NCBI GenBank assembly: GCA_032622095.1
Contig: CP136066.1
Location: 2,751,784-2,815,783, forward strand
From: Siphonodentalium dalli
Lineage: Eukaryota > Mollusca > Scaphopoda > Gadilida > Siphonodentaliidae
Direction: 5' to 3'
Length of the DNA stretch: 64,000 nt
Below the pieces are notes generated by a model. That model was not told where the DNA came from and ran no database searches. It saw only the letters and a program-made list of their open reading frames with translations. Position numbers and translations under genes: made by a program. Shown piece by piece: positions 17,278-62,028 of the stretch; the stretch's first letter is position 1, and the number at the start of each line of letters is the position of its first letter.

Positions 17278-17720
17278 TGTATAACTGAGTGTCTAACACA
17301 ACACAAATTCAGAACATGTTACAAAGCAATGCTTTTAAACCATGTTTATATCATACCAGGGCCACGCTGCAGTTTGTTTAAGATTGGAAACCTGATATTG
17401 AAACCTGTTGATGAAGCCATAGACGCACTCGGTGGACTCATACACCTCGCCGGATAGAGGTTTATGACCCACCTGGTTGAGCCATGGCCCTCACAACTAT
17501 TCGTGATTGGCAGCAATCTACCATGGAATATCTCACTGTTGACACATGCATGAGGTTTTACAACGACTGTCGTATCACTAGGCACCAAATTGTCTGATAT
17601 GCAAGTTGCAACGCTTATACCACTGTGGTGAGTACCAATGGGGCTTGTAATTTGCTGTATACATAATGTTGTAATTGGAGATTTAGAACCCTGAAATTAG
17701 TTCATCCGATTATATTCAAG

Positions 17721-18698
17721 GTGCCACAGATTAGCAAAGTGACGGATGCAGCAGATACGTTAATCGACGAAATGGAGAAGCTCCAGAATGGAATGAACTG
17801 CCTGCGGGTAGACGACAACGACGCCGCCACACTGGATGTTTGTGACAACAAAGTGGAATCAGCCGTGTCAACACAACAACAACAATGTTATTCCGATGGT
17901 GCTTCTGTCGAGCAATCCTGTGACTTGGTGAAGGACGCTGTGATCCGGGAGTTTGTTAAAACACGTGAGATTATCATCGAGGGTTCATATCCCGTGATGC
18001 GGTTTGTTGACAATACCGTCGCATCGCCGTTAATGGTGGCCACGTGCAGCCCTCACACACTGATGCTGATGAGCCAGAACGGCCACGTGACACGGCAAGT
18101 GAAGTTATCGATGTCGCCATGTGATTTGTGCGTCCAGTCGGGCAGGGTGTTTGTTACGCACGTGGCTGATGACGTGATAACCGTCTACAACTTACGCAGT
18201 CTCACAAAGTCATCAGAGTTCAAAACGTTGGAAGGATGCTGGGGTATTTGTGGCATCGATGATAATCTTGTTGTGAGCTTCTGTTATGACAAATGTGTCC
18301 GTCTGCTGACATATAACGGTGAAATTACCGCGAAATCCACTCACACGTTTTACTATCCCTGCTTCGTGGCTGTATCAGCGAGCAGCGACGTTATTTACGT
18401 CACGGAACGTGATTCATATTCTATCGTGGTTCTGTCGTCTGACCTATCAACATGCTTACAGACGATCATACACTCAGAGTTGAAGGACCCTTGCGGGATG
18501 TGTGTGTTTGGAGAGCAGATATATGTCGCTTCTTGGTCAGCGGGTAAGATGTTCCAGTTGGATGCCGATGGGTCACACTGTCGCGCCGTGATATCATTAG
18601 AAGATCAATGGGGCGTCGACTGGAACGCAAGCGAGAGACTGATGGCCATCAGCACCACCCTTAATAAGCAAATCGTTCTATACAAAGGTTCATTGTAA
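17721..18698 (+). CDS. NHL/TRIM-like beta-propeller protein, probable 3' coding exon
   Basis: An uninterrupted frame encodes about 325 residues ending in TAA at 18696-18698. The first 75 residues are acidic and helical-looking, like the end of a TRIM coiled coil. From about residue 90 the sequence shows propeller-blade patterns repeated about five or six times: a Pro-Cys-x-x-x-x-Val turn, a hydrophobic strand such as IYVA, YVTE or VFVT, then a strand ending in a charged loop. This resembles the NHL-repeat half of TRIM2/3/32-type proteins and their invertebrate relatives. No RING or B-box is present. The frame is already open before 17721, and 'tatattcaag' at 17711-17720 could be a splice acceptor. 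The first in-frame ATG is at 17772, giving 308 residues. A 14-A run at 18898-18911 leaves open a 5'-truncated retrocopy. Function, if intact, cannot be named beyond a protein-interaction propeller. Confidence 0.72.
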   Translation: MPQISKVTDAADTLIDEMEKLQNGMNCLRVDDNDAATLDVCDNKVESAVSTQQQQCYSDGASVEQSCDLVKDAVIREFVKTREIIIEGSYPVMRFVDNTVASPLMVATCSPHTLMLMSQNGHVTRQVKLSMSPCDLCVQSGRVFVTHVADDVITVYNLRSLTKSSEFKTLEGCWGICGIDDNLVVSFCYDKCVRLLTYNGEITAKSTHTFYYPCFVAVSASSDVIYVTERDSYSIVVLSSDLSTCLQTIIHSELKDPCGMCVFGEQIYVASWSAGKMFQLDADGSHCRAVISLEDQWGVDWNASERLMAISTTLNKQIVLYKGSL

Positions 18699-44000: not shown

Positions 44001-47000
44001 ACAGATCGTAAATCCGTTGAAAAATGGCGGAGATTTTGGCCGTCCAAGTTTTAATTTGGGCCCATATGCTTTCCAATAATCAAAGTGTTATCCGTCTCCA
44101 AATCAGATGAAATTGATACTATGCAATCTATGTTAGCAGCAAATCACAAAAATGGAAACAATTTTAAAATCCGTTGGAAACTAACGGAGTTACGGGGCCT
44201 CAAACTTAGCATTTTGTGCCAGGGGTTGATGTTTTCCCAATCCCGTCACCCAATTTCGAGGCAGGGGTGGGGTCACGTCCAAACACTTGAGATCAACCTA
44301 CATATGTTAGGACAACATATAATCACCATACTTTATATTTTACGTCCATAAACTGCGATTCATTTCACTCATGATTGTTCCTATTATTATACTTCCATGG
44401 TGTAACCAAGGAAGTATATTGTTTTTCTGCTGCGGCCGTTTTCTGTTTAATTGGAAATACTCAGAAACTAATGGGAGGAGGACCGCGAAATCTCTAGCGA
44501 ATGAAGGCATCTAAGGTCTACTAAAAATAATGGTATCCGGATGTTGGTCCAATATCTTTTGACAGAGTCATGGCCCTTTTTCGATTATTTTTCATTATTA
44601 TTATTATACTGGACACTTTTGCAACCCTTATTACTCGAAAAGTAACAGGAGTAGCACACTAAAACTTGGTACGTATCTTGGGATCAAAGAGTTGTATGCC
44701 ATCGTCGCATAACGAATATTGTCCGCGTTTTCCCCGAGGAGTTATCTCCCTTTATCTGAAAAAAATGTCATTTGATTATCTCGGAAATTATAAGGAGCAG
44801 AGCATCGAAAATTGGACCGTATGCACATCTCGATATGCCCTACTGCCCACGGGCATCAGAACTTGTGTCCGCGCTTTCCCTGAGGAGTTACCGCCCATAG
44901 TTGGCAAACCTCTATTTGATTGTACTATGTTGTCCTCTTGTATCATTCCAGATAACTGCAAGTGATTTTCATAGTCGTGTTGACCGTTGTCAGAGAAGGA
45001 AAATTTGACAGGGTCGGACATATATTTTGACACTGGGGTGGGGGGCAAATTTTTTGAAAAATAAAATTTTGATTGACATTCATATATTTAAGTTTATGTA
45101 TTTCCCGAACGAAAACAAACTCATACCGGAAAGGATTTTTGAAATCCGAGAAGAAATGCAAGAGTTACGGGCCCTCAAAGTTTGCAATTTGGGCCCATGT
45201 GCTTGTGATCACATCTCCTCCGAAGATATCGAACATAGGATGTCATCTGATACGCCAATGTGTGCGGACTGAAGAGGGCACGCGGTGGGCTAAATTTTGC
45301 CAGTGTCGGTTCATTATTGTGGGTCTGGGGAGGGGTGGTCCGTGGTACCAATTTTTAATTCTTCTCGGAATCAGATGAAACTTGGAATCTAACATCTGCA
45401 ACATCAGCCGATCTAGAAAGTGAAAAAATTTCGAAAATCCATCAAAAACTAAAAGAATTGCGGCCCCTCAAACTTTGCAATTTTGGGCCCGTGTGCTTGA
45501 TAACACATCTCCTCCGAAGATATCGAACATAGGATGTCATGTGATACGAAAATGCGTACGGACTGAAGACGGCACGCGGTGGGCCAAATTTTTTCAGTGT
45601 CGGTTCAGTATTGTGGGTCTGGGGAGGGGTAGTCCGTGGTACCATTTTTTAATTCTTCTCGGAATCGGATTAAACTTGGAATATAACATTTGCAACATCA
45701 GCCGATCTGGAAGCTGAAAACAGATCGTAAATCCATTGAAAAATGGCGGAGATTTTGGCCGTCCAAGTTTTAATTTGGGCCCATATGCTTTCCAATAATC
45801 AAAGTGTTATCCGTCTCCAAATCAGATGAAATTGATACTATGCAATCTATGTTAGCAGCAAATCACAAAAATGGAAACAATTTTAAAATCCGTTGGAAAC
45901 TAACGGAGTTACGGGGCCTCAAACTTAGCATTTTGTGCCAGGGGTTGATGTTTTCCCAATCCCGTCACCCAATTTCGAGGCAGGGGTGGGGTCACGTCCA
46001 AACACTTGAGATCAACCTACATATGTTAGGACAACATATAATCACCATACTTTATATTTTACGTCCATAAACTGCGATTCATTTCACTCATGATTGTTCC
46101 TATTATTATACTTCCATGGTGTAACCAAGGAAGTATATTGTTTTTCTACTGCGGCCGTTTTCTGTTTAATTGGAAATACTCAGAAACTAATGGGAGGAGG
46201 ACCGCGAAATCTCTAGCGAATGAAGGCATCTAAGGTCTACTAAAAATAATGGTATCCGGATGTTGGTCCAATATCTTTTGACAGAGTCATTGCCCTTTTT
46301 CGATTATTTTTCATTATTATTATTATACTGGACACTTTTGCAACCCTTATTACTCGAAAAGTAACAGGAGTAGCACACTAAAACTTGGTACGTATCTTGG
46401 GATCAAAGAGTTGTATGCCATCGTTGCATAACGAATATTGTCCGCGTTTTCCCCGAGGAGTTATCTCCCTTTATCTGAAAAAAATGTCATTTGATTATCT
46501 CGAAAATTATAAGGAGCAGAGCATCGAAAATTGGACCGTATGCACATCTCGATATGCCCTACTGCCCACGGGCATCAGAACTTGTGTCCGCGCTTTCCCT
46601 GAGGAGTTACCGCCCATAGTTGGCAAACCTCTATTTGATTGTACTATGTTGTCCTCTTGTATCATTCCAGATAACTGCATGTGATTTTCATAGTCGTGTT
46701 GACCGTTGTCAGAGAAGGAAAATTTGACAGGGTCGGACATATATTTTGACACTGGGGTGGGGGGCAAATTTTTTGAAAAATAACATTTTGATTGACATTC
46801 ATATATTTAAGTTTATGTATTTCCCGAACGAAAACAAACTCATACCGGAAAGGATTTTTGAAATCCGAGAAGAAATGCAAGAGTTACGGGCCCTCAAAGT
46901 TTGCAATTTGGGCCCATGTGCTTGTGATCACATCTCCTCCGAAGATTCATATTATGCTACACGCGAAACGGAGATGACTTTTGGGAAATCCAGAGTCCAA

Positions 47001-50000
47001 AACGGATCCAAATCGACCTGTCCCAGAAAAGTCGTTCATTTTGTTTTCACTTTTTGAAAATGGCTCCAATATTTCAACAAAAACTTTTGGACATAGAACA
47101 TTATTTTTTTCTCAGTCAAGTGAAAAGAGCTCTTCAAAATAATTCCGCTTATATATATATAATATATTATATATATATACGCCAAAAATTTGTCACTCCC
47201 CTCTCCCCATCCCCCGTGGGATGGAACCTACCTCCGATTCGATTCACCCGTCTTGCCGCGGGCCAGTCTCAATCCTCTACCAGAGAACTGATAGAACGCC
47301 GTCGAATTCCAACAATCATTTCCAGAGTGGTATATTGGTATGAGTTCATATCGGAGCCGTTATAAAGCAAATAACTTGATTTTAATATAAAACCACCTAT
47401 TCGTAAATTGTGTAGCCCATGGTGTGTGGTAAATTATAATTTTATCGTGTATAGTGTGTCATGAGCTATCTGCGTGCGTGCATTTCACTTTTGTATTTTC
47501 TTTCGCATCTTCAACGCATTGCATATCATATACAACCAAACAAAATACAAACATTACATTAATTTGATCAAACAAACCTTCGTTGTACGGTGTATATTTC
47601 TACTAACGTAATGACGACGTATAGCCAATTATTCCATTTGCGATAACAACGATAAACACATAGAAACATGCAAACATCATCATTTTCGTAAGAACAATTT
47701 GTATATTGTTATAAACCGTAGTATACTGCTGATAGACATTCAATTCTTTCCGTGAGTATATGTCTGCCGAATTGGAAATGACTCCTTTTATACTTTCGCA
47801 AACTAAAACACCACTGATAGTTTCGTTCACCGTCATTTAAGTATTGTCAAAAAGCAAACGTGAAACAACCGCTCATTATTCCTACCATAAAGGAATCTAC
47901 TTATAGAGAACGCTCTTTTTTGTTTGATTACGTTCAAACTCTTTGTGTGTTGTTGTTAATCACTCATTATATTCTTCGGACCGAACGTTCATTAAGCGCG
48001 CTTCATGTTATATATGCGAAAACCGACCCACGTGTTTATTGTTTTATATCCGATTCAATAACACATCGATGTTTATATTCTAGTTATTTATCGAATATAA
48101 AAAGCATCTTTACATTATCTTTAGTTTGGTATTATTCGTATTTGATGATTAAAATACACCAAAGCATGTTAAAAAAAAAAAAAAAATAGTAGATACTTTG
48201 ACGGGATTCGAACTCACGTCGCAATAAAACACAAACTGAAGGTTTGACGCTCTCACCACTCGGCTACGCACTGCGCTGTTAATTTATAAGAAAATATATT
48301 AGTATTAAATATATAGGCATATAACTGTGTATATTTAAACTTTATATCCAAACTGATTGAAATGCGTGACTATATATACCCCTTTCCGGTATACGGGGAA
48401 CGGGAAAATGCACCTATTCTTCCCAACAAATCCAAACGGGCTAATTAAAGAGCAAGGTAATGCCGTAGCAGGTACATTTGGATATTCTAATCAAGCCACC
48501 CCCCCAAATCTTGACAGCTATACTTTAAAAGTAACCTACCCAACGGAGAATGCAAGATGGGGTGGGTTGAGACTTTTGGTAAATTCCACCGAAAATCTAA
48601 AGTGCCATTTCCGAATTTTCAGATGGATCGGTTTACGTGTGACATTGCTATCTACTACATATTTTGGGACTTCTGTCTGTTTGTCTGTTAGGTATGGCCA
48701 GGAAAACAGCCGGACGGATTTCGACGAAACTTGATATCTAGGGATACTTTTGTCCGGGGAGTGCTTTTGACCCCGACCTGGTCATGACTTTAAAAATGGT
48801 CAATTCAATGTCAAATCGTGTAAAACGGATGGATTTCCACGAAATTTGATACCTATGGGTACGTTTGTCCGGGGAGTGTTTTGGACCGGTAAAACTATGT
48901 CCCCGACCTGACCTTGACCTTTAAAATGGTCAAATCAAGGTCAAATCGCGCCTTTCGACGGGATTTTGATGAAATTGATACCTAGGGATAATTTTGTCGT
49001 GGGAATGTTTTACACGGGTCAAATCGAGTCCCCGACCTGACCTTGACCTTCAAAATTGTCAATAGGGAAAACAGCACGGACGAAGTCTGGTCACCCTGCT
49101 AGTATAATATAAATATTTATACTTAAGTAGTCTATCACTAACCTAATTGTAGCCCCAAATCCAAACGTGCTAATAAAGATCTAGTTTAATGCAGAAGCAT
49201 GTACGTCGGTATACTGTAGGTACGCCTCCAAGCTGTATGCTCAGCGGAGAGCTTGCGTCGGGTGGGTTCAGACTTGGCAAATTCCACCACAAACAAATGT
49301 GGAAAATTACTTAAAAAATAAAACTTTGAGACAACAATTTGTTGACGTGGTCAAAAGTATCCAGGTGCAACTTTCGAACGATTGTATAAGTTTTAGAGTG
49401 GACCGTTTAATCCTGGTAGCGCGTAACATTGTTAACGGGTGAAATATATTACTCAAATTAATATGATTTGCACCCTTTTGATATATATACAAGCCGATTA
49501 CTCTATAATCAGACACACCAAATTTCGTGACCGTTGAACAGGATTTGGGCATCCAGGGGAGCGGTTATAATTAGCCATAAAATGTGTCCCTACTGAATAC
49601 AAATGAACTAATTGGCTGGGTGAATGGTGACTCAGTTGGTCAGGACCATGATGCATTAGACAGTCATGACATAAACCTTTGGAGTATATTTAATATTTAG
49701 AAATGTCAATGCAAGTCCACCATCGGATCATTAAGCACCAATATGAATTCGAATTAAGAGGAATACACATATACGCATAACACTCACATGGGATGGGATG
49801 GGATACCATGGAAGTATATCTGATTCCATGGAATCTGACCTCTAGTTATATTCGGCATTCTATAGTCTGAACTGGTGTACAACATTAATTATATTCGGCA
49901 TTCCAGTCTGACCTGGTGTACAACATTAATTATATTCGGCATTCTAGTCTGACCTGGTGGACAACATTAATTATATTCGGCATTCTAGTCTGACCTGGTG

Positions 50001-53000
50001 TACAACATTAATTATATTCGGCATTCTAGTCTGACCTGGTGGACAACATTAATTATATTCGGCATTCTAGTCTGACCTGGTGTACAACATTAATTATATT
50101 CGGCATTCTAGTCTGACCTGGTGGACAACATTAATTATATTCGGCATTCTAGTCTGACCTGGTGTACAACATACATTATATTCGGCATTCTAGTCTGACC
50201 TGGTGGACAACATTAATTATATTCGGCATTCCATTCTGACCTGGTGTACAACATACATTATATTCGGCATTCTAGTCTGACCTGGTGTACAACATTAATT
50301 ATATTCGGCATTCTAGTCTGACCTGGTGGACAACATTAATTATATTCGGCATTCTAGTCTGACCTGGTGTACAACATACATTATATTCGGCATTCTAGTC
50401 TGACCTGGTGGACAACATTAATTATATTCGGCATTCCAGTCTGACCTGGTGTACAACATACATTATATTCGGCATTCTAGTCTGACCTGGTGTACAACAT
50501 TAATTATATTCGGCATTCTAGTCTGACCTGGTGTACAACATTAATTATATTCGGCATTATAGTCTGACCTGGTGTACAACATTAATTATATTCGGCATTA
50601 TAGTCTGACTTGGTGGACAACATACATTATATTCGGCATTCTATAGTCTGACCTGGTGTACAACATTAATTATATTCGGCATTATAGTCTGACTTGGTGG
50701 ACAACATACATCATATTCGGCAATCTGATCTGACCTGGTGTACAACATTAGTTATATTCGGCATTCTAATCTGACCTGGTGTACAACATACATCATATTC
50801 GGCATTCTAGTCTGACCTGGTGTACAACATACATCATATTCGGCATTCTAGTCTGACCTGGTGGACAACATTAATTATATTCGGCATTCCAGTCTGACCT
50901 GGTGTACAACATACATTATATTCGGCATTCTATAGTCTGACCTGGTGTACAACATTAATTATATTCGGCATTATAGTCTGACTTGGTGGACAACATACAT
51001 TATATTCGGCATTCTGATCTGACCTGGTGGACAACATTAATTATATTCGGCATTCTAGTCTGACCTGGTGGACAACATTAATTATATTCGGCATTCTAGT
51101 CTGACCTGGTGTACAGCATTAATTATATTCGGCATTCCAGTCTGACTTGGTGTACAACATTAATTATATTCGGCATTCTAGTCTGACCTGGTGTACAACA
51201 TACATCATATTCGGCATTATAGTCTGACCTGGTGTACAACATACATCATATTCGGCATTCTAGTCTGACCTGGTGGACAACATTAATTATATTCGGCATT
51301 CCAGTCTGACCTGGTGGACAACATTAATTATATTCGGCATTCTAGTCTGACCTGGTGTACAACATTAATTATATTCGGCATTCCAGTCTGACCTGGTGTA
51401 CAACATTAATTATATTCGGCATTATAGTCTGACCTGGTGGACAACATTAATTATATTCTGCATTCTAGTCTGACCTGGTGTACAACATTAATTATATTCG
51501 GCATTATAGTCTGACCTGGTGTACAACATTAATTATATTCGGCATTCTAGTCTGACCTGGTGTACAACATACATTATATTCGGCATTCTAGTCTGACCTG
51601 GTGTACAACATACATTATATTCGGCATTCTAGTCTGACCTGGTGTACAACATTAATTATATTCGGCATTCCAGTCTGACCTGGTGTACAACATTAATTAT
51701 ATTCGGTATTCTAGTCTGACCTGGTGTACAACATTAATTATATTCGGCATTCTAGTCTGACCTGGTGGACAACATTAATTATATTCGGCATTCTAGTCTG
51801 AACTGGTGTACAGCATACATTATATTCGGCATTCTAGTCTGACCTGGTGTACAACATTAATTATATTCGGCATTCCAGTCTGACCTGGTGTACAACATTA
51901 ATTATTTTCGGCATTCTAGTCTGACCTGGTGTACAACATTAATTATATTCGGCATTCTAGTCTGACCTGGTGGACAACATTAATTATATTCGGCATTCTA
52001 GTCTGACCTGGTGTACAGCATTAATTATATTCGGCATTCCAGTCTGACTTGGTGTACAACATTAATTATATTCGGCATTCTAGTCTGACCTGGTGTACAA
52101 CATACATCATATTCGGCATTCTAGTCTGACCTGGTGTACAACATACATCATATTCGGCATTCTAGTCTGACCTGGTGGACAACATTAATTATATTCGGCA
52201 TTCCAGTCTGACCTGGTGGACAACATTAATTATATTCGGCATTCTAGTCTGACCTGGTGTACAACATTAATTATATTCGGCATTCCAGTCTGACCTGGTG
52301 TACACCATTAATTATATTCGGCATTATAGTCTGACCTGGTGGACAACATTAATTATATTCGGCATTCTAGTCTGACCTGGTGTACAACATTAATTATATT
52401 CGGCATTCTAGTCTGACCTGGTGGACAACATTAATTATATTCGGCATTCTAGTCTGACCTGGTGTACAACATACATTATATTCGGCATTCTAGTCTGACC
52501 TGGTGTACAACATACATTATATTCGGCATTCTAGTCTGACCTGGTGTACAACATTAATTATATTCGGCATTCCAGTCTGACCTGGTGTACAACATTAATT
52601 ATATTCGGCATTCTAGTCTGACCTGGTGTACAACATTAATTATATTCGGCATTCTAGTCTGACCTGGTGGACAACATTAATTATATTCGGCATTCTAGTC
52701 TGACCTGGTGTACAACATACATTATATTCGGCATTCTAGTCTGACCTGGTGTACAACATTAATTATATTCGGCATTCTAGTCTGACCTGGTGTACAACAT
52801 TAATTATATTCGGCATTCCAGTCTGACCTGGTGTACAACATTAATTATTTTCGGCATTCTAGTCTGACCTGGTGTACAACATTAATTATATTCGGCATTC
52901 TAGTCTGACCTGGTGGACAACATTAATTATATTCGGCATTCTAGTCTGACCTGGTGTACAGCATTAATTATATTCGGCATTCCAGTCTGACTTGGTGTAC

Positions 53001-56000
53001 AACATTAATTATATTCGGCATTCTAGTCTGACCTGGTGTACAACATACATCATATTCGGCATTCTAGTCTGACCTGGTGTACAACATACATCATATTCGG
53101 CATTCTAGTCTGACCTGGTGGACAACATTAATTATATTCGGCATTCCAGTCTGACCTGGTGGACAACATTAATTATATTCGGCATTCTAGTCTGACCTGG
53201 TGTACAACATTAATTATATTCGGCATTCCAGTCTGACCTGGTGTACACCATTAATTATTTTCGGCATTATAGTCTGACCTGGTGGACAACATTAATTATA
53301 TTCGGCATTCTAGTCTGACCTGGTGTACAACATTAATTATATTCGGCATTCTAGTCTGACCTGGTGGACAACATTAATTATATTCGGCATTCTAGTCTGA
53401 CCTGGTGTACAACATACATTATATTCGGCATTCTAGTCTGACCTGGTGTACAACATACATTATATTCGGCATTCTAGTCTGACCTGGTGTACAACATTAA
53501 TTATATTCGGCATTCCAGTCTGACCTGGTGTACAACATTAATTATATTCGGCATTCTAGTCTGACCTGGTGTACAACATTAATTATATTCGGCATTCTAG
53601 TCTGACCTGGTGGACAACATTAATTATATTCGGCATTCTAGTCTGACCTGGTGTACAACATACATTATATTCGGCATTCTAGTCTGACCTGGTGTACAAC
53701 ATTAATTATATTCGGCATTCTAGTCTGACCTGGTGTACAACATTAATTATATTCGGCATTCTAGTCTGACCTGGTGTACAACATACATTATATTCGGCAT
53801 TCTAGTCTGACCTGGTGTACAACATTAATTATATTCGGCATTCTAGTCTGACCTGGTGTACAACATTAATTATATTCGGCATTCCAGTCTGACCTGGTGT
53901 ACAACATTAATTATTTTCGGCATTCTAGTCTGACCTGGTGTACAACATTAATTATATTCGGCATTCTAGTCTGACCTGGTGGACAACATTAATTATATTC
54001 GGCATTCCAGTCTGACCTGGTGTACAACATACATTATATTCGGCATTCTAGTCTGACCTGGTGTACAACATTAATTATATTCGGCATTCCAGTCTGACTT
54101 GGTGTACAACATTAATTATATTCGGCATTCTAGTCTGACCTGGTGTACACCATTAATTATATTCGGCATTATAGTCTGACCTGGTGGACAACATTAATTA
54201 TTTTCGGCATTCTAGGGTGTAAGCTACAGTTGCCATAGAAAACAACGGTATACATCAAGCCGTTACCCCGTGCGACAGTTCTACAAGGGAGAGGTGCTTC
54301 CGGAGAAAGACAATACCTTCACGGAGCACATCAAAGTGCCACAAACACCACCGAACGATCTTCTGTACTGCAATATAATGGAGGTCAACTACTTCGTCAA
54401 GGTATACTAACCCTGCAGGGAGCCCCACACATATATAGAAGCATGTGTACTGAGTGTCGTCTGCTCGGTTTGTCTGGGGCTCTGTGCGGGTGAAATTATG
54501 AAATTGTTAAAGAATACAATAACAAATTATTAAAATTGTAAAAAATTGTTAGGCCAATGCATTCTCTTATATATGCGAGGCGACCTATGGTCGACTCACA
54601 TATATAAGAGAATGCATTGGCACAGGGTAAAACAATCCCAATATAATGGAGGTCAACTACATCGTCAAGGCAACGAGCGTCTTGAAACATAACATGGGGT
54701 CAATACAATGCAATACAGTTATTTTAATATCAGCGTCCCTGTACGAATAATTTTACGTTTATTACGTCAGCCTGTGTTTATTAGGTTAATACTATATTAA
54801 TTATATGATGCCATAGTATATGCGTTGGAGAGAACACCTACTGACCTTGCACACTTATTGTGCGATCCACAAATGAGATATTAAGCATAATTTTGCTGTC
54901 GCTAAAATATGGCATATCTCTTCCCGGAACGTGTTGTACATTATTCCGTCGCCTATACGGAAAAGAATATATCAACAAATATAAATTGTATTTAGTATAT
55001 CGTATCACCTCCACCGGACAGTTGTATAATGTATGAGATGTTTAGATCACAAATATGTACGAACACGTCCATGGCAACCAAAAGTCAAATACAATATCAT
55101 TTTATTTCACTTAAGTGAAATAAAGTGTCATTTTATATTACTTAAGTAACATTAATATTAAATAGCGGTTTGGCTTGCCATACACGTCCGGATCGTACGA
55201 ACAGCGCTCCAGGTGGGATACTTATATCTCGTTACCAACTTCAATCACGGGAAATTGCGATTTGACAATATGGAGCCTCGCATAGACCCATACAGACGAC
55301 AGTCATCAGTGTATCGTTCTCTCTGCCTGGTGCCCCATAAAGGGTTAATATTCAAATCTGATTTTAACACGATCTCACGATCTCTATATACGACTTTAAA
55401 AAACAAAACATCACGAAACCAGTATTGGTACGAAACATCTTTCAACTCAGAGTCCAATCTGGCTACATTTATTACAATTGGGGGGGGGGGATATTACATC
55501 TGCAACAGCTTGTCTGGAGACACATACCTGTTAGTGGTACACATGCTGTCAATAAATGTATATTGTTGTGTAATGAATATGTATACAGCATTCGACTGAC
55601 TCATTTAGTTCCACCAAACCACATTATTTCAACTTGATGATAACGAAATGATCAGCCATTTTTACTTTGTTGTTACAATATTTGCAACTCCCAAATTTAG
55701 CTACAATAGTTATATGCTATTGTAGCTACATTTGCTATCGTAAAACAATATTTTACCAATTCCCATTGCATGCAAGCATTACCTGTATATATAACATTTC
55801 GGTTGCACCAGTTTGCGGAATATCCGAGAATCATAGCTAAGCACATGCATATATTATGAAGTTGGTAATGCTATGTGAGCTGGGACTCAGATCCATCCGT
55901 ATATGATCTATTTTTCTTCTATTTAGGTACATTTGTCAGGAAAAAGTAACAATGTTGGAATATTGTTGTTAATAATATATGCAAATGGCAAACAATATAA

Positions 56001-57292
56001 CTAAGAGTATAATCAAATCACGTTCTTATATATTTAAATTGTTGTTTGTTGGATTGGGTTACCTCTCTTCGACCAGATTCACCCATCATCAGTAGCCATA
56101 TGTAGCTATGGCAGCTGCATATGGCTCACCATACCTGGTTAAATCATTGGTCCGATTGGTATCACGTGAGTTTTACTATATACGCAGTGAACACGTGAAC
56201 GAATTTTACCGCACAGCCTATATCTGATTAACCCAATGTATGGTGTACTATCACTATATAGTGGGTACACAGTAATAAACACATTTTACTAAACTGCCCA
56301 ACACCCGATTAATATGATGTTGGGTTAAGAACTATCCAACGGATATGTATAGTGTATCGGTTCATTGTGACGTGCTGTGTGGGAGATTTGGTGACAATGT
56401 CAGATGTGCCAATTCATCAGACACCAAGGCAGATAATTCTAGTGTTTACCTGTACAACATACAATAAAAACATTTATTATTACAGGCGGACATCAATACG
56501 GTGGACGACGATGCTACGATGGAACTTAAATGTAGAGTCTACATTGGGTCAGCATTGTGTGAACCTGAACCTGACCATCCACATGAACCCCAAGTTGACA
56601 CCACACCGGTTAACACCGCAGCATCGTATCAACCGCCCACGTCTGAATTTATGAATCAATATAACCAAGCGCAAAACACGCAAATACCTCAACCAGACAA
56701 GGGGTATCCATCCCAAGCTCAAATACAGCCCGGATCGACAGGGTCGTATAAACCACCGACGGCTGAATTCGTGCAGCAATGGAACAAGGAACAAGGCGTG
56801 CGGATGTCTCCAGAAAGACAGTCACTACCAAACCAAACTCAACTACAGACTGAGTTCGATCCGCAATACATCGATCAGTTAAACGTAAATAACGTGAGAT
56901 CGGTTCAGGCAGGACAATCTGGGTTTATATCGCAACCGATATCTCAAAACAATATGGGCCCAACCATACCTGGACCAGGATATGGCGTGCATTCTGTTCA
57001 AACGGGACAATCTGGGTTTACATCGCAACATATATCTCAAAACAATATTGGCCCAACTACACCTGGACCAGGATATGGCGTGCATTCTGTTCAAACGGGA
57101 CAATCTGGGTTCATAACACAATCAAACTCTCATAACAAAATGGGCACAGCTACAACTGGATCAGGATATGGCGTGAATTCCGTTCAAACGGGGAATACTG
57201 GGTTCATTACACAATCAAACGCTCAACAAAATACACCATCAACACATCAGGTGAATTCAGGTCAGCAGAGCCAACCTGGAATTATACGTTGA
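22938..57292 (+). CDS. Arrestin domain-containing protein (alpha-arrestin/ARRDC family), six coding exons
   Basis: Joined exons: 22938-23058, 28330-28455, 32353-32576, 33955-34137, 54216-54401 and 56486-57292. Total 1647 nt, 548 residues, with compatible phases at all five GT-AG junctions. Residues 1 to about 160 form an arrestin N domain (MGK start, YMPGEFVSG strand, TLFGK, a PF-QLPENIPYSF block, then GHVKYVL). Residues about 165-312 form the arrestin C domain (GPI, GFVPGETIPVTLYV, LPEKDN, KVPQTPPNDL, NYFVKADI, VYIGSAL). The tail, about 235 residues, is Gln/Asn/Gly-rich. Family members are cytosolic adaptors for membrane-protein endocytosis and ubiquitination, often recruiting NEDD4-type ligases through PPxY. 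No PPxY is visible here, although SY(Q/K)PPT(S/A)EF occurs twice. Function is inferred from the family. The gene symbol is left empty because orthology to a specific ARRDC cannot be decided. Confidence 0.93.
23095..25130. repeat. 68-bp minisatellite in arrestin intron 1
   Basis: The unit of 68 bp includes TACTAAATACTCATTGATGA, GTAGTTATCCCTCAGTAAAT and GTTCAGATAATAAGTTTAAC. Copies begin near 23101, 23169 and 23237 with exact 68-bp spacing and become more diverged after about 24650. The array starts about 40 bp after the exon 1 donor. A 438-bp MITE interrupts it at 23900. A reversed version of the same repeat is found in intron 3 (32.9-33.2 kb). Confidence 0.93.
23900..24337. mobile_element. 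TA-flanked MITE nested in the 68-bp array
   Basis: The ends AAGGTACTCAATC and GATTGAGTACCTT are inverted, and longer inverted arms of about 100 bp follow (including TTGATTCGAGTCGAGGAAGT and its mirror). It is flanked by TA at 23898-23899 and 24338-24339. Removing it restores an ordinary 68-bp monomer, which confirms the boundaries. TA duplication suggests a Tc1/mariner-type non-autonomous element. No transposase is present. Confidence 0.87.
25140..28329. other. Remainder of arrestin intron 1
   Basis: Two-copy repeat of about 58 bp ('catgggttaaccgtatcga') at about 25318-25410. Decayed copies of the palindromic module occur at about 26682-26740 and 27224-27293. A purine/GC patch with GGCGGCGG repeats lies near 25690-25790. 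No further exon is recognised. The last 70 bp contains a duplicated, non-functional copy of the exon 2 acceptor region (28263-28295). Confidence 0.6.
28330..28455 (+). CDS. Arrestin gene exon 2
   Basis: Acceptor TTATTGCAG at 28321-28329 and donor GGGAAAG|GTAAGT at 28455/28456, phase 1 to phase 1. Encodes about 42 residues, including an acidic insert (SDNDEDFDFSETE) and the TLFGK segment that aligns with the conserved E-x-Y-...-LFG strand of the arrestin N domain. Joining to exon 1 replaces the usual VxG with IKA at the junction. Confidence 0.88.
28963..29030. repeat. Strong hairpin in intron 2
   Basis: Arms of about 26 bp (TCAAAATG..AGGATATGGTGATCCC and its mirror GGGATCACCATATCCT..CATTTTGA) are separated by a loop of about 9 bases. 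Only one or two mismatches interrupt the stem. There is no promoter or terminator context, so it is probably the remnant of a small inverted-repeat element. Confidence 0.75.
29055..29185 (-). repeat. Fragment of the dispersed repeat, inverted
   Basis: Reverse complement of the block found at 58.2 kb and 33.3 kb: 'aacacttcttcaaat', 'acgctctttaaaacac', and a GGTGGGTGGGCTT-like run. It lies in intron 2 of the arrestin gene. Confidence 0.6.
29190..31020. other. Intron 2 middle section
   Basis: AT-rich with no recognised exon, repeat array or RNA. A short inverted pair (TGTCTGACA / TGTCAGACC) lies near 30865-30905, within a self-complementary stretch whose outer parts read TGCGTTCCATGGATTATGGA and its mirror around 30837-30935. 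Confidence 0.45.
31025..31110. repeat. Three-copy 30-bp direct repeat
   Basis: GTTTGTCAGCTTATGATGGA plus GAGCCAATGG is repeated almost exactly, with the third copy truncated. It lies in intron 2 of the arrestin gene. Confidence 0.85.
31400..31935. repeat. 49-bp minisatellite in arrestin intron 2
   Basis: The unit of 49 bp includes GGTACTATGTGGAATACCTG, TCCACGTAAT and GGAGTACGAAATATTCA. About nine copies alternate between ACTATGTGG and AATATGCGG variants, hinting at a two-monomer higher-order pattern. The first 100 bp consists of shorter 'ggagtacctctccgggtact' copies. Confidence 0.9.
32032..32090. repeat. Inverted fragment of the 5.8-8.1 kb minisatellite
   Basis: ACCAGCATCATAGCAATTCG and a following ACCAGCATCATAACA are the reverse complement of the 29-bp unit that dominates 5.8-8.1 kb. 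Only about two monomers are present. It lies about 260 bp upstream of exon 3. Confidence 0.75.
32353..32576 (+). CDS. Arrestin gene exon 3
   Basis: Acceptor CTTATTTTTCAG at 32341-32352 has a good pyrimidine tract. The donor is CTGTCG|GTAAGT at 32576/32577. Phase 1 in, phase 0 out, about 75 residues. It carries the most diagnostic arrestin N segment: GTHEIPFQVQLPENIPYSFD, then GHVKYVLIATVERSWKF and the closing FRV-x-x-FYDLD strand. Confidence 0.95.
32900..33235. repeat. 68-bp minisatellite, inverted, in arrestin intron 3
   Basis: About five copies of the reverse complement of the intron 1 repeat. TCTGAACATTTCC phrases lie at about 32915, 32974, 33042, 33110 and 33178, spacing 68 bp after the first interval. 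The orientation is opposite to the much larger array at 23.1-25.1 kb in the same transcription unit. Confidence 0.9.
33220..33910. repeat. Dispersed repeat copy with palindromic module, intron 3
   Basis: It matches the 3.94-4.99 kb repeat in order: a 'gatcgacgctggtcg' block, 'cttcttcaaatagctccgtt', 'cccgattaatcctaagatc', 'gatcatgcacgtgttacc', then the palindrome at 33491-33556. An A/T-rich spacer and a half-palindrome ending in 'tattgcattggca' follow at about 33736-33770. No coding capacity is seen. Its end lies within 60 bp of the exon 4 acceptor. Confidence 0.7.
33955..34137 (+). CDS. Arrestin gene exon 4
   Basis: Acceptor TTTCCTCCACAG at 33943-33954 and donor ACG|GTAAGT at 34137/34138, phase 0 to 0, 61 residues. 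It begins the arrestin C domain: a Cys-containing linker (EATQQYSDCCKKLGPI), then the GFVPGETIPVTLYVSN motif typical of the first C-domain strands, and KIVVVTISL. Confidence 0.94.
34300..35540. repeat. Diverged tandem repeat of about 130-145 bp, intron 4
   Basis: Variants of ATCATGGAGATGATTATGTA followed by TAAGTTTGGTGGTAATCGGC recur at about 34308, 34563, 34752, 34880, 35013, 35155, 35293 and 35439. Each is followed by a 'tgccccctctcc..' and a 'cacacggcaccaagttggcg' block. The copies are old and indel-rich. Short open frames across the units are not conserved between copies. Confidence 0.8.
35470..35880. repeat. Inverted repeat closing the 34.3-35.5 kb array
   Basis: The left arm 35470-35552 (GAAATCGGC ... 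TCAGTCACTTTAGAA) is mirrored by 35797-35880 (TTCTAAAGTGACTGAAAT ... GCCGATTTC). The arm sequence is a copy of the tandem unit, so the last monomer is present in both orientations. Confidence 0.75.
36105..42670. repeat. 41-bp satellite array, block 1 (arrestin intron 4)
   Basis: The monomer of 41 bp reads TCTAGTCTGACCTGGTGTAC followed by AACATTAATTATATTCGGCA and T. Variants include CTATAG insertions, GGTGGAC, CAGCATACATT and CATCATATT. Length implies roughly 145 copies. About 1.3 monomers lie before a 0.6-kb insertion at 36156-36765. Variant monomers recur with a 3248-bp offset (TCTGCATTATAG at 38891 and 42139; GTCTGATCTG at 39311 and 42559), showing large-block duplication inside the array. 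It ends sharply at the 7.2-kb insertion. Confidence 0.97.
36156..36765. mobile_element. Inverted-repeat element inserted in the satellite
   Basis: The ends CCTGGGGCCTGTACTATAG and CTATAGTACAGGCCCCAGG are perfect inverted copies. The arms continue as ATTTACAATTGCC and its mirror, then diverge over about 80-100 bp. Satellite monomers flank both sides, and the monomer is continuous if the element is removed. No transposase is visible, so it is a MITE of unassigned superfamily. Confidence 0.82.
42671..46946. repeat. 1.72-kb tandem repeat, two and a half near-identical copies
   Basis: Units begin with ACTTCCATGGTG at 42671, 44391 and 46110. The third stops at about 46946 after 'ctccgaagat'. Units differ by only a few substitutions or single-base indels per kilobase, indicating recent duplication or homogenisation. 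Each opens with a hairpin (ATACTTCC...GGAAGTAT) and contains an internal direct repeat of about 295 bp (CGAAGATATCGAACATAGGA at 43501 and again at about 43796). Open frames up to 103 codons are repeated because the DNA is repeated, and none has a recognisable domain. Confidence 0.93.
46947..48190. other. Unique part of the 7.2-kb insertion
   Basis: AT-rich DNA with a (TA)n patch at about 47150-47180. The longest frames are 47860-48189 (plus) and 47603-47836 (minus, with one hydrophobic stretch near its C terminus). Neither resembles a known protein. A 14-16-base A-run lies near 48171-48186, next to the tRNA-like sequence. Confidence 0.45.
48190..48275 (-). ncRNA. tRNA-like pol III promoter sequence (SINE head or decayed tRNA)
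   Basis: On the minus strand an A-box-like TAGCCGAGTGGTGAGAGCG (48248-48266) precedes a B-box-like GAGTTCGAATCCC (48203-48215) at tRNA spacing, and the T arm is readable. The 5' and 3' acceptor strands do not pair, and a T-run follows at about 48171-48186 (A-run on plus). This suggests a tRNA-derived SINE or a decayed tRNA rather than a functional tRNA gene. The anticodon cannot be assigned with confidence. Confidence 0.6.
48651..49102 (+). mobile_element. Non-autonomous Helitron
   Basis: It starts with TCTACTACATATTTTGGGAC after an A (48650). It ends with a GGAC..AAGTCTGG hairpin, 'tcaccctg', then CTAG (49099-49102) followed by T. A 5' TC, a 3' hairpin followed within about 10 bases by CTRR, and insertion between A and T are Helitron hallmarks. 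The body has TGACCTTGACCTT-type repeats like the element at 59808. No Rep/helicase is encoded. Confidence 0.8.
49103..49845. other. Right part of the 7.2-kb insertion
   Basis: No gene is recognised. It contains an approximate repeat of the sequence at 48420-48600 ('ccccaaatccaaacg', 'taatgcagaagcatgtac', 'ggtgggttcagacttggcaa' resemble blocks before the Helitron), which suggests a duplicated unit split by the Helitron. GGGATGGGATGGGATACCAT lies near the right end. Confidence 0.45.
49846..54215. repeat. 41-bp satellite array, block 2, ending at the exon 5 acceptor
   Basis: Same monomer as block 1, roughly 106 copies by length. The first 1.5 kb is a duplicate of block 1 from about 39.43 kb (offset 10427 bp, then 10263 bp after loss of four monomers). 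From about 51.1 kb a 943-bp higher-order unit (23 monomers) is visible: TACACC variants at 52301 and 53244, and TCTGACTTGG variants at 52042 and 52986. The final monomer ends exactly at TTCTAG (54210-54215), the splice acceptor of exon 5. Confidence 0.97.
54216..54401 (+). CDS. Arrestin gene exon 5
   Basis: Phase 0 to 0, 62 residues. The acceptor is CGGCATTCTAG, which is part of the last satellite monomer, and the donor is GTCAAG|GTATAC. The frame encodes VSYSC, FYKGEVLPEKDNTFTEHIKV, PPNDLLYC and MEVNYFVK, which match the arrestin C-domain order (the K-V-P-x-x-PP-x-x-L block and the closing YxVKV strand). The residue series continues directly into exon 6. Confidence 0.94.
54554..54620. repeat. 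Palindromic module, intron 5
   Basis: The same 67-bp CCAATGCATT...AATGCATTGG palindrome as in the piggyBac-type MITEs, here with only a short 'cacaggg' neighbour and an AT-rich left flank. It sits between exon 5 and a duplicated fragment of the exon 5 end. Confidence 0.85.
54639..54670 (+). repeat. Duplicated fragment of exon 5 3' end
   Basis: CAATATAATGGAGGTCAACT plus ACATCGTCAAGG repeats exon 5 positions 54371-54402 with a single T-to-A difference. The copy is followed by CAACG rather than TATAC, so it lacks a GT donor. It lies 268 bp downstream, just after the palindromic module. Confidence 0.85.
54680..56485. other. Arrestin intron 5
   Basis: Contains a MITE-like repeat (55690-56125, listed separately), a mirrored pair of TTTTATTTCACTTAAGTGAA-type palindromes at about 55100-55145 and an 11-G run near 55481-55491. 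A 128-codon frame at 55213-55599 has no recognisable domain and is not needed for a continuous arrestin reading frame. Confidence 0.5.
55690..56125. mobile_element. MITE-like element, uninterrupted copy
   Basis: Bounded by short palindromes built on TAGCTACAATAG and TAGCCATATGTAGCTA. Its full length reappears in inverted orientation at 58974-61220, where it is split by three Helitrons. The shared blocks include CGGTTGCACCAG, CGGAATATCCGAGAA, GATCCATCCGTATAT and AACAATGTTGGA..ATTGT. No coding potential is seen, and the exact ends and target duplication are uncertain. Confidence 0.75.
56486..57292 (+). CDS. Arrestin gene exon 6, last strand plus repetitive tail
   Basis: Acceptor TTATTATTACAG at 56474-56485, phase 0; stop TGA at 57290-57292. 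The first 33 codons complete the arrestin C domain (ADI...MELKCRVYIGSAL). The rest is a low-complexity Gln/Asn/Ser/Gly/Pro tail. SYQPPTSEF (residues 327-335) and SYKPPTAEF (367-375) are 40 residues apart. Residues about 417-535 are nearly four copies of a 31-residue repeat with consensus GYGVHSVQTGQSGF, in exact 93-bp spacing (56915, 57008, 57101, 57194). No PPxY, transmembrane segment or signal peptide is present. Confidence 0.92.
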   Translation, partial: ADINTVDDDATMELKCRVYIGSALCEPEPDHPHEPQVDTTPVNTAASYQPPTSEFMNQYNQAQNTQIPQPDKGYPSQAQIQPGSTGSYKPPTAEFVQQWNKEQGVRMSPERQSLPNQTQLQTEFDPQYIDQLNVNNVRSVQAGQSGFISQPISQNNMGPTIPGPGYGVHSVQTGQSGFTSQHISQNNIGPTTPGPGYGVHSVQTGQSGFITQSNSHNKMGTATTGSGYGVNSVQTGNTGFITQSNAQQNTPSTHQVNSGQQSQPGIIR

Positions 57293-57441
57293 GCCAACGA
57301 CAAACACACCAGCACAGGTTGCTGGAAACCCTATATTGTTAATTCAACCTCATGTGTTGTGTCCAGGCGCACGTGTTACAGTACATCATGTTCGGTGATT
57401 GCTCAATTGCCAATTTGGTCATTCATTTATGTTTATGTCAC

Positions 57442-57447
57442 AATAAA
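57442..57447 (+). promoter_or_regulatory. Candidate polyadenylation signal of the arrestin gene
   Basis: AATAAA lies 150 bp after the stop codon, in 'gtcacaataaaacacacc'. It is the first canonical hexamer downstream of the stop. Cleavage would be expected about 10-30 bases later. Confidence 0.6.
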
Positions 57448-57449
57448 AC

Positions 57450-58970
57450 ACACCATAATGTGAATATCAAAGGCGTTGACCAAGGCGACTGAATACTGTT
57501 GATAGAATAGCTGCACGGCCATATACTAATCGATCCATCAATCATTCGCATGCAGCTTGTTGGGCTCCCTGAGACTTACTGTGCTGCATGGTAATATCCA
57601 TACTGTAAGACATACTTAAGAACGAAATAGGTGTGTTAGTTGAGGCATGTGTATGGCGCTGTGGGCATCGTAACACATTTAGGGTGCTAAGTGGTTCACC
57701 CTATGTGCTCCACGCCGACATTTCCTCCAATGCAACACACCATATACATGTACATACATAAGAGTCAGTAACTAAATTGGGGTTTACGATTCGTTAAATT
57801 TAATTTGGATTCATTTAATACCACTCCCACTTTTGTTTCAGACATTCTTAACTCTTAGCTAGACTATGCACACGTTCCATCGTGCTCACCCGGTCAATAT
57901 AACTTATTAAAAGGCACATCCTAACTATATTTGTATCAGGTACAAAATGCAGGCCCTGGCACTGTTTTGTCGTAAATGCGGTCAGTTTTAAGTATAAGTG
58001 TGTTGTCATTTCAATAGTATGAACAGATTATCTATGCAATACTAGAATACGTACACAATTAGATAGGGATTTCGTCGAGATCACGATTAGATAGCGATTC
58101 ATTTTCACCTGAAGTTGTGAGCATATTTCGGAATGCGTATACGGGTGATAACTCTATATAGAACATACTTTTACGAAGTAACGGATTATGTATATGAACT
58201 AATTTACAGCACTAAAAGTGATCAACTTTGGTCGGGCATAAGTAAACTTAACTTGTTAGGTGGGTGGGCTTTGGTGTGTTTAGGAGAACGCTCTTTAAAA
58301 CACTTCTTCAAATAGAGCACAATCTGCTGCGCCAGCGTCCTTCGTGGCATCAACCCAAACTCCAATCAGGGTTTAACCTCCCTTTGTGACTCGGTAAGAC
58401 GGCTGCTATCGGCGACATTTTACTCACATTTGGTGGACTTCGCGATATTAAGATAAATATTAAGCGAGGAAAATGCTGCCTTTATTGAGCACACAAAATA
58501 TCGGAAAAATGTGTGTGGTTTCGTACCTTAGGTTTGGAATGTCCCACTAGAACCAAACACCTATATGGCGAAAAGGTGTGCTTTGGTTACCCGATTACGT
58601 TCCGACAACACGCATGGTAAGTCAGCCACAAGAGTTCTAATTTACTCCAATGTTGACGAGTTACTTGCGAAAATCGTCAACAAAACTACAGCTCTGATCC
58701 TACATTCTGTCAGTAAGTTGTTAGTGTGGAAATTGTTCTCAAAGCACATACGAAAATTGACTTTGGGGCGATCGGTTTTCGCCATTTTGTTTGGAAAACC
58801 CCGCGCTAAACATAGAAACGGCAGACTAGTACCCAGTCAGTGACACGGTCAGAATGGAAGTGTGACGGGTGCGCCCTGGTAGAGATTGACATCGACCATG
58901 GCAATGCTACATCGTCGTCACACAGACTATTTTCTTTTGAAAAAAAAGTCTGGATTATTGTATCAATTCC
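57450..58970. other. Intergenic stretch after the arrestin gene
   Basis: Includes a copy of the dispersed repeat at about 58130-58320 (AAAAGTGATCAACTTTGGTCG, GGGTGGGCTT, CACTTCTTCAAATAGAGC). The 58320-58960 part is less AT-rich and contains a 92-codon frame (58565-58843) with no recognisable domain. It could be a promoter or exon of an unseen neighbouring gene, but nothing decisive was found. Confidence 0.45.
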
Positions 58971-59187
58971 CAAATATAGCTACAATAGCTACATATGGCT
59001 ATTGGTGATGGGTGAACATGGTTGAAGAGGGATAAGCCAATCCAACAAACAATCATTTAAATATACAGGAACATGATTTGATTATACTCTTAGTAAATTA
59101 TATTGTTTGTCATTTCCATGTATAATTAACACAATACTCCAACATTGTTACCTTTTCTTGACACATGTACGCAAATAGAACAATATA

Positions 59188-59807
59188 TCTCATATATATT
59201 TTGAAGACCTCTGTTTGTTTGTTTGTTTGTCTGTCATTGATACAAATCTACGATTCTCGACCGATCGGGACGAAACTTGGTACGTGTGTGTAGTTTGACC
59301 AGGCGGTGAACGTTGTCGTATTGGCGAGCACGTGCGGTGCCCGTGCAGCGCATGCGCAGACGAGATCTCGGAAACGGGTGGAGCTATCGACTTCAAATTT
59401 GCTATGTGAATGTATCTTGCCCCGGATGCGAATTTTATCGGGTCGTCGTGCCCGTGCGACGCCAGCTTCGCGCATGCGCAGACGAGATATCGGAAACGGG
59501 TGGAGCTATCGACTTCAAATTTGCTATGTGAATGTATCTTGCCCCGGATACGAATGTTATCGGGTTGCCGAGCCCGTGCGACGCCAGCTTCGCGCATGCG
59601 CAGACGAGATCTCGGAAACGGGTGGAGCTATCGACTTGAAATTTGGTATGTGAATGTATCTTGCCCCGGATACGAAGTTTATCGGGTCGCCGAGCCCGTG
59701 CGACACCAGCTTCGCGCATGCGCAGACCAGATCTCGGAAACGGGTGGAGCTATCGACTTGAAATTTGGTTTTTGAATAGCCCGGACAACGTCGGGCTCAT
59801 CGGCTAG
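59188..59807 (+). mobile_element. Non-autonomous Helitron 1 of a tandem triplet
   Basis: Starts TCTCATATATATTTTGAAGA after A. Ends with the hairpin GCCCGGACAACGTCGGGC, 'tcatcgg', then CTAG at 59804-59807. The interior has four copies of a 122-bp unit carrying GCGCATGCGCAGA (at 59349, 59471, 59593 and 59715), followed by CGGAAACGGGTGGAGCTATC. No Rep/helicase is encoded. Confidence 0.85.
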
Positions 59808-60407
59808 TCTATTATATATTTTGGAAGATCTGTGTGTCTGTGTGTTTGATCGCGATGAACTCAAAAACGGCTAAGCCAATTTCGATGAAATTTGGTATAT
59901 GGGGGTATTTTCGGCCGGGGACGAACATAGGCATATTTGTTTGTCCGTGCGACGTGACCTTGACCTTGAAATCGGGTAATTTCAAGGTCAAACGCCCGAA
60001 TATCACGGGATTTCGATGAAACTTGGTACGTGTGGGTATCTTCGGCCGGGGAGTCTCATAATCATATTCATTTGCCCGTGTGACGTGACCTTGACCTTGA
60101 AATCGGGTCAATTCAAGGTCAAATCGCCAATTTTGATGGGATTTCGACGAAATTTGATACATGGGTGTACTTTTGTCAACTGAGTGTTTTGGACAGGTCA
60201 AATCGTGACCCCGACCTGACCTTGACCTTCAAGATAATAAATTCAAGGTCAAATCGGGTAAAACCGGATGTATTTCGACGGGCACGTTTGTCGGGTACTT
60301 TTGTCCGCGCAGTGTTTTGGACGGGCAAATCGTTACCTCAACTGACCTTGACCTTCAAAATGGTCAATTCAAGGTCAAAGCCCGGACGAAGTCGGGTCAC
60401 CTTCTAG
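59808..60407 (+). mobile_element. Non-autonomous Helitron 2 of a tandem triplet
   Basis: Begins TCTATTATATATTTTGGAAG immediately after the CTAG of Helitron 1. Ends with the hairpin CCCGGACGAAGTCGGG, 'tcacctt', CTAG at 60404-60407. The interior is four imperfect units with TGACCTTGACCTT and TTCAAGGTCAAA, each preceded by a 'tttcgatgaaa(c/t)ttgg' block. It belongs to a different subfamily from Helitrons 1 and 3 but shares their ends, and it resembles the element at 48651. Confidence 0.85.
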
Positions 60408-60966
60408 TCTCATATATATTTTGATGACCTCTGTCTGTTTGTCAGTAAGTTTGTATGTTTGTCTGTCATTAATACAAATCTACGATTCTCGACCGATCGG
60501 GACGAAACTTGGTACGTGTGTGTAGTTTGACCAGGCGGTCGTCGTTGTCGTATTGGCGAGCCCGTGCGACGCCCGCTTCGCGCATGCGCATACGAGATCT
60601 CGGAAACGGGTGGAGCTATCGACTTGAAATTTGCTATGTGAATGTTTCTTGCCCCGGATACGAATCTTATCGGGTCGCCGAGTCGGTGCGACACCAGCTT
60701 CGCGCATGCGCAGACGAGATCTCGGAAACGGGTGGAGCTATCGACTTGAAATTTGCTATGTGAATGTATCTTGCCCCGGATACGAATTTTATCGGGTCGC
60801 CGAGCCCGTTCGACGCCAACTTCGCGCATGCGCAGACCCGATCTCGGAAACGGGTAGAGCTATCGACTTGAAATTTGTTTTTTGACCAGATCTCGGAAAC
60901 GGGTGAATCTATCGATTTGAAATTTGGTTTTTGAATAGCCCGGACAACGTCGGGCTCATCGGCTAG
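60408..60966 (+). mobile_element. Non-autonomous Helitron 3 of a tandem triplet
   Basis: Begins TCTCATATATATTTTGATGA directly after the CTAG of Helitron 2 and ends CTAG at 60963-60966, followed by T. Same subfamily as Helitron 1, with three 122-bp units (GCGCATGCGCA at 60581, 60703 and 60825) plus a truncated unit. The same GCCCGGACAACGTCGGGC 3' hairpin precedes the end. Confidence 0.85.
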
Positions 60967-61220
60967 TATATATATACGGATGGATCCGAGTCCCATATCT
61001 CATCGCATAAACAAGTTGTTAACAGATACATGTGCCTAGCTATGCTTCTCGGATATTCCGCAAGCTGGTGCAACCGAAATGTCAGAGGTAATGATTTCAT
61101 ATGTAGTAAAACAACAATACCATCACCATTAGTTGCAACACCTCGCGGTAATGCTTGCATGCAAATTGGTAAAATATTGTTTTGCGATAGATATACATGT
61201 AGCTATTGTAGCTATACTTG

Positions 61221-62028
61221 AAAATTGCCATGCTTGAACATGTCGCTGATACAAATGATACCATCTTCTGCATAATGAACTAGTCACAACTAGATTACTA
61301 GGCACACAAATAACACAATATGCTGCGCCAGCCTCCTTCCGGCATCGAGCATCAAACTGACACATCGTCGTTACATCTACTCACTTATTTTGAAGAATGC
61401 CACTTGCGTCTGGGTTAAAGTACGTCAATATGCGTGGTTCATTGTATTCGACTTTGTTATTCTAGCTGACTTACTATTTTGATGTGGATATGCGGATACC
61501 TGGAGTGTAGGATATTGTTCAACAGAAGTCAAAGTACCCTCTCCATAATCTCATCAGCGCTTGAAATTCATAACATACTAACATCTACATGATCAATGGC
61601 TAATATTCCACTATACATTTAACAATATTAACCAGTTTGAACATTTTAGCTTACACAGACAACACATGTTTTGGTATAAATGCCATCATCGCGGGGGGGG
61701 GGGGGGGGGTCTACACATTTGTTCCAGACACAAGGGGTGGTCGAATATGTCGACATAATAAATAATGCAAATATATTCCACAATAAAATTTGATCACGTC
61801 CACTAATATTAAATAGACTCCTATCTACATGAATAGATCATTTAGAATGTACTGAAATCAATGTAGGGGGTTTATATATGGTTCGAGGTTCCCATAGTGG
61901 AACAAAGGCAGGCATGCTGGCAAACATAATGTGTGCTTGCTAAATAACTTGATAAAGTGCGTTTGGCTATACTTGTAATTTTACAAAACTCCCGAAACAA
62001 TGACTTGACATGTTTGCATTATTTCGTT
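61221..62028. other. Non-coding stretch before the LINE
   Basis: Contains TATGCTGCGCCAGCCTCCTTC at about 61319, resembling a block at 58325, and a 17-base G run at 61693-61709. No exon is recognised. Confidence 0.5.

Follow-up and report, generated by a model that had tools for sequence, protein, structure and literature searches.

How can an intron end in a long tandem repeat and still be spliced to the correct base? The question is raised by an arrestin-domain gene of Siphonodentalium dalli, in which a 41-bp tandem array runs up to the first base of a C-domain exon. A first-pass annotation of the 64,000-nucleotide stretch of DNA analyzed here (the window) had suggested that the array itself supplies the 3' splice site. 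The reading that we favor, and consider fairly probable, is that the last 41 bp of intron 4 were duplicated in place to about 250 copies and that the last of these copies is the acceptor of exon 5.

Arrestin-domain exons flanking the array

The gene was traced through the following features.

32353 to 32576, + strand: arrestin exon 3 (N-domain); acceptor TTTTTCAG, donor TCG/GTAAGT, boundaries placed by reading
33955 to 34137, + strand: arrestin exon 4; acceptor CCTCCACAG, donor ACG/GTAAGT, phase 0; gives Arrestin_C when joined with exon 5
34138 to 54215, + strand: intron 4, 20.1 kb, as inferred from the flanking exon boundaries
54216 to 54401, + strand: arrestin exon 5 (C-domain); donor AAG/GTATAC; Arrestin_C at 1.1e-12 when joined to exon 4

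The peptide of 32280 to 32603 matched the Pfam profile Arrestin_N with 57.4 bits (cut-off, 24.9; profile positions 79 to 147 of 148; 2.1e-15). Against Arrestin_C, exons 4 and 5 scored 20.2 and 20.0 bits when taken alone and 48.1 bits when joined (cut-off, 27.7; profile positions 13 to 110 of 137). With both domains above their Pfam cut-offs, the gene is classed as alpha-arrestin-like. A phmmer search of the joined exons against solved structures returned nothing at E values up to 10, and an approximate ARRDC3 protein sequence gave weak matches to exons 3 and 4 but none to exon 5; outside the Pfam profile, exon 5 thus has weak support.

No exons before exon 3 or after exon 5 were located among the ORFs of the window and with the patterns that were tried, and the gene may thus not be whole. 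The Pfam scan for the missing exons covered 102 + strand ORFs, comprising 101 picked by hand from 153 qualifying ORFs plus the ORF at 17667 to 18695. It gave one weak Arrestin_N match (E, 0.034) that was not traced to an ORF among the 48 of the 102 that were rescanned singly, together with two - strand ORFs; exons 1 and 2 are therefore without placement. A pattern search of 54402 to 64000 found no C-terminal arrestin motif. The ORF at 17667 to 18695 (343 amino acids) had weak, subthreshold matches to NHL-repeat and Glu_cyclase_2 profiles.

Extent and variation of the 41-bp array

The array occupies 36110 to 54215 on the + strand, with the unit consensus TCTGACCTGGTGTACAACATTAATTATATTCGGCATTCTAG. 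A scan of the whole window that allowed up to 14 mismatches per 41 bases found 251 units on the + strand, none on the - strand, and none outside 36110 to 54215. Complete monomers number 249; the 2 further monomers are split by insertions, so that the array is discontinuous, interrupted by a 606-bp inverted-repeat element and a 7.2-kb insertion. Its parts are as follows.

36110 to 36150, + strand: first, exon-distal monomer, beginning exactly at unit base 1
36161 to 36766, + strand: 606-bp element with inverted ends (82 to 84% over 73 to 75 bp) inside the second monomer; exact ends approximate
36767 to 42671, + strand: left array block, with 142 complete monomers between the remainder of the split second monomer and the opening part of another split one
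42672 to 49845, no strand assigned: 7.2-kb insertion in one monomer, which is split at 42671/49846, with TTATA on both flanks
49846 to 54215, + strand: right array block, with 106 complete monomers, including a 23-monomer segmental duplication
54175 to 54215, + strand: last monomer, with CTGAC, TTAAT, and the TTCTAG acceptor and without any other AG

The 249 complete monomers fall into 51 haplotypes and differ from the consensus at a mean of 1.5 positions per 41-mer. The statement that every monomer carries the same elements proved too strong. The C of CTGAC at unit base 6 is retained in 242 of 249 monomers, whereas the TTAAT bases T21 and A22 are found in 187 and 188 of 249, respectively, with A at base 21 in 62. 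Among 248 segments scored for their endings (two of which hold two monomers each, and two of which are partial or overlong), the full TTCTAG ends 149, CCAG 40, ATAG 28, and CTATAG 14. In the last monomer, unit bases 13 and 28 depart from the consensus. An exact search of a viral contig collection with a 26-base core of the monomer found no match, and neither Rfam at its gathering thresholds nor ARAGORN gave a match in the window. Within the 7.2-kb insertion, 42672 to 46946 consists of about 2.5 tandem copies of a 1.72-kb unit that are about 99% identical.

The end of the array as the likely acceptor of exon 5

The array ends at 54215 and exon 5 starts at 54216 (GGT GTA AGC). The last monomer reads TCTGACCTGGTGGACAACATTAATTATTTTCGGCATTCTAG and is followed directly by GGTGTAAGC, in agreement with the first-pass annotation that this monomer is intact through TTCTAG and that the exon begins at once. 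The in-frame codon immediately before the exon is TAG, and therefore exon 5 cannot extend in frame into the array. The claim that a phase-0 junction fits exon 4 was also borne out: exon 4 ends in ACG/GTAAGT at 34137 in phase 0, and the frame remains open across the join. Among the 580 AGs tried as acceptors in 36101 to 54215, only the one at 54215 keeps the frame open from exon 4 through exon 5. The three decoys nearest the exon run into stops 15, 34, and 28 residues past the junction.

The arrestin C-domain continues across this junction, as had been proposed. A second run, in which the exon-4 lead was shorter, gave the observed join 48.8 bits against Arrestin_C, compared with 45.4, 46.8, 44.7, and 41.8 bits for joins shifted by -1, -2, -4, and -8 codons and 46.0 and 40.7 bits for joins shifted by +2 and +4 codons. 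None of the other six joins scores as high as the observed register, which leads the runner-up by 2 bits. The single open AG among 580, the best Arrestin_C join, and the in-frame TAG just upstream together make it likely that the end of the array is the acceptor of the arrestin C-domain exon.

Monomers as potential acceptors and choice of the splice site

The first-pass annotation had estimated about 250 decoy acceptors in intron 4. Of the 249 complete monomers, 233 end in AG, but the decoys are not strong: scored with splice-site weights that are rough and not species-specific, the array acceptors have a median at the 53rd percentile of 2,260 AGs outside the array. The decoys are thus average AGs for the local DNA, and to speak of 250 competing acceptors overstates the problem. 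By the same rough weights, the real site lies at the 88th percentile. When the +1 base is counted, it ranks 2nd of 233 array AGs because it is the sole monomer end followed by G (AG/G); leaving that base out of these rough weights puts the site below 102 of the 232 other array AGs. Within the gene, the acceptors of exons 3, 5, and 4 scored -0.94, -0.07, and 2.60, respectively, with the rough weights, and the exon-4 acceptor has no motif of the branch-point consensus yTnAy (likewise rough and not species-specific) at branch distance.

The last monomer contains CTGAC, with its A 36 nt before the exon, and TTAAT, with its A 18 nt before the exon, and has an AG-free stretch of 39 nt. In post hoc tests on the 2,260 outside AGs, a yTnAy motif at branch distance proved common, with one or more in 43.7%. 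AG-free runs of 38 nt or longer precede 17.8% of them, CTRAY lies at the right distance in 8.2%, and these last two features coincide in 2.3%; the further requirement of a second branch-like motif lowers this to 0.8%. The pyrimidine tract of the array unit is poor.

If the array has supplied the acceptor, the copy adjoining exon 5 would be the working splice site and the other copies would be intronic, their use adding 41 nt or more and a premature stop. From established exon definition and acceptor recognition, the spliceosome would be expected to pick the last copy, which lies closest to the donor of exon 5 and, alone among monomer ends, has a G after it. Use of upstream copies would yield stop-containing transcripts, which are expected to be degraded. 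The realistic competitors are the few copies nearest the exon, not all 250, because exons made from the first decoys (227 nt, 268 nt, and so on) would still be of ordinary size. The locus may serve as a natural test of spliceosome choice among many near-identical acceptors, most of which end in AG and, at the upstream AGs tried, lead to premature stops. The donor-like GTAAGC at 54219 to 54224, separated from the acceptor by just the first three bases of exon 5, would permit recursive splicing if it were used; we leave it as chance.

Origin of the array

The array is in integer register, with homology starting at unit base 1 on the left and ending at unit base 41 on the right; the 41 nt flanking it on either side match the unit at 9/41 and 12/41 positions, against a background mean of 10.7. 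In-place duplication must give an integral array, whereas insertion with random ends would give one about 1 time in 41, by simple arithmetic for random breakpoints. The register therefore favors a history in which one 41-bp intron end multiplied where it stood over one in which an existing satellite was inserted. The first-pass annotation had left open whether the array was seeded from the native 3' end of the intron or replaced the native acceptor; of these, seeding is favored by the register at both ends. At other intron ends, too, integer register could offer a simple way to tell inserted arrays from those that grew in place.

In the favored reading, the last 41 bp of intron 4 would have formed a complete acceptor, with branch-point-like motifs, an AG-free stretch, and the AG. 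Tandem duplication of this segment where it lay, with a unit that stopped at the intron-exon border, would have started the array, which would then have grown to about 250 copies, partly as blocks of tens of monomers were duplicated segmentally. At the presumed first duplication, microhomology amounts to a single base at most. In-place duplication does not explain why the unit should stop precisely at the splice junction, which has to be taken as a coincidence.

We think it unlikely that the array instead came from outside, through recombination or the insertion of a satellite, and took the place of the native acceptor. In that case the former acceptor could be CCAG/AATGTG, which lies shortly before the first monomer, and exon 5 would once have had two more codons: this CCAG joins exon 5 in frame (+2 codons), and Arrestin_C still scores 46.0 bits. 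It is, however, a poor site, scoring -5.58 versus -0.07 for the present acceptor and having a single branch-like motif at 38 nt. The first six bases of exon 5, GGTGTA, also occur inside the monomer, and this possible recombination point (about 1% by chance, an arithmetic and post hoc figure) is the only sequence shared by the exon-5 start and the unit, where it lies at a different place; it may reflect chance or be a trace of recombination. An outside source would also have to account for the integer register at both ends, which is about a 1-in-41 outcome for random breakpoints, and has no further copy of the unit in the window to point to.

The other explanations concern the junction rather than the source of the repeat. 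The gene copy may have decayed or exon 5 may be unused, so that the array merely abuts a dead exon. The lack of exons before exon 3 and after exon 5 among the ORFs and patterns tried would fit this, as would the duplication of a 32-bp piece of the exon-5 end downstream and the lack of a match between the approximate ARRDC3 sequence and exon 5. We nevertheless judge a dead exon improbable, given that exons 3 to 5 are open, have GT-AG borders, and significantly match Arrestin_N and, across the junction, Arrestin_C. Still more improbable is an assembly error at 54.2 kb that joined the array to the exon. Tandem arrays are generally prone to misassembly, but an error here would have had to place the junction right behind an AG and at unit base 41 while also matching the reading frame and the domain register.

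Because the unit reads TC...CTAG, we considered a Helitron origin and rejected it. Elements of this type have a 5' TC and a 3' CTRR and insert between A and T, but here a G borders the array on each side. A lariat tail, which would extend as the unit does from the branch-like motif to the AG, was likewise set aside as a source, with nothing in its favor beyond the limits of the unit.

Growth and possible turnover of the array

Block duplications are evident in both parts of the array. At a lag of 79, 54% of monomers in the left block are identical (expected, 8%), and at a lag of 23, 33% of those in the right block are (expected, 11%). Near the exon, 22 of 23 monomers (52781 to 53683) are identical to their counterparts 943 bp upstream. 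In the last two monomers of the array, the variants are 17C,38A and 13G,28T. Variant 13G is present in 84 of 249 monomers and 28T in 6 of 249, five of these six within the last 2.4 kb. Because the variants of the exon-side monomers are also found in the array, the exon-side copy lies within the local variant pool. The full haplotype of the last monomer is unique in the array, and exchange reaching this monomer is therefore deduced rather than directly seen. Judged from these sequence variants, repeat turnover may reach the working acceptor. It is conceivable, though we lean against it, that the working acceptor evolves in concert with the satellite, exchange among about 250 3' splice modules rewriting the copy that is used. 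If this were true, the acceptor sequence would be set by repeat turnover as well as by selection, which raises the question of whether an essential splice signal can come under the control of molecular drive acting in a repeat.

We considered, and rejected, the idea that selection has removed decoys close to the exon. All 16 losses of AG among the 249 monomers lie upstream of 51018 to 54215, and the last 78 monomers keep their AG, which is the opposite of purging. The hypergeometric probability of this absence is 0.0019 if monomers are independent, a condition that their common ancestry spoils.

Comparison with known systems

A minisatellite is reported to supply splice donors in a gene that we take to be human IFI6. 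It resembles the arrestin array in being a tandem repeat that supplies splice sites, but the sites are donors there and acceptors here. Closer in kind are the mirages of amphioxus, which the available portions of the reports describe as tandemly duplicated intron-exon boundaries in Adh3, the globins BflGb6 and BflGb9, TnC, and PGBD5, with minisatellite-like copies, many of which have splice signals, and with regular splicing reportedly undisturbed (PMC3087553; PMC3902484). According to the same portions, the globin and Adh3 units span the border and include exon sequence, and the PGBD5 repeats coincide with or overlap splice sites, all including the boundary (PMC3087553; PMC3902484). The BflGb6 mirage is described there as having 6 and 3 copies in two haplotypes, with the boundary copies reportedly excluded from homogenization (PMC3087553; PMC3902484).

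Like these mirages, as far as they are described in those portions, the arrestin array places tandem repeats at an intron-exon border, here a border inferred from sequence. Unlike them, its unit stops at the AG and includes no exon sequence (over its initial 41 nt, exon 5 agrees with the unit at 12/41 positions; background mean, 10.7). It also differs from the BflGb6 mirage as reported in having about 250 copies of 41 bp rather than a few copies and in that its exon-side copy carries variants found in the array, whereas the BflGb6 boundary copies are excluded from homogenization. By this partial account, the array works like a mirage but lacks the exon sequence and is a variant of one. The first-pass annotation held that either origin would be unusual, but with the amphioxus mirages as described in part (PMC3087553; PMC3902484), the situation is not wholly unprecedented.

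In Drosophila, kl-3 and kl-5 have gigantic, megabase-sized introns that contain satellite, according to the part of the source available (PMC6508621). The likeness lies in satellite DNA within an intron that must be spliced out; unlike in the arrestin array, a satellite that acts as a splice site is not mentioned in that part (PMC6508621). In the available portions of open-license papers, no tandem acceptor array of this kind was found beyond the mirages and the donor minisatellite.

Other repeats in the window

A family of short palindromic elements (GCCAATGCATTCTCTTATATA...) is found at 4204, 9649, 12246, 33490, 54553, and nearby, with one member in intron 3 and one just 3' of exon 5. Past the latter, 54639 to 54670 is a 32-bp copy (31/32) of the end of exon 5 (54371 to 54402), 268 bp downstream of the original and without the GT donor. 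On the minus strand, a reverse transcriptase ORF at 62190 to 63998 extends up to the window end; its 62967 to 63998 portion matches RVT_1 (1.1e-37), and the adjoining ORF at 62190 to 62963 had no Pfam match. A 68-bp tandem array lies at 23099 to 25065, and about 8 kb farther on, at 32957 to 33216, is a short copy of it that appears to be inverted when the consensus units are compared by eye.
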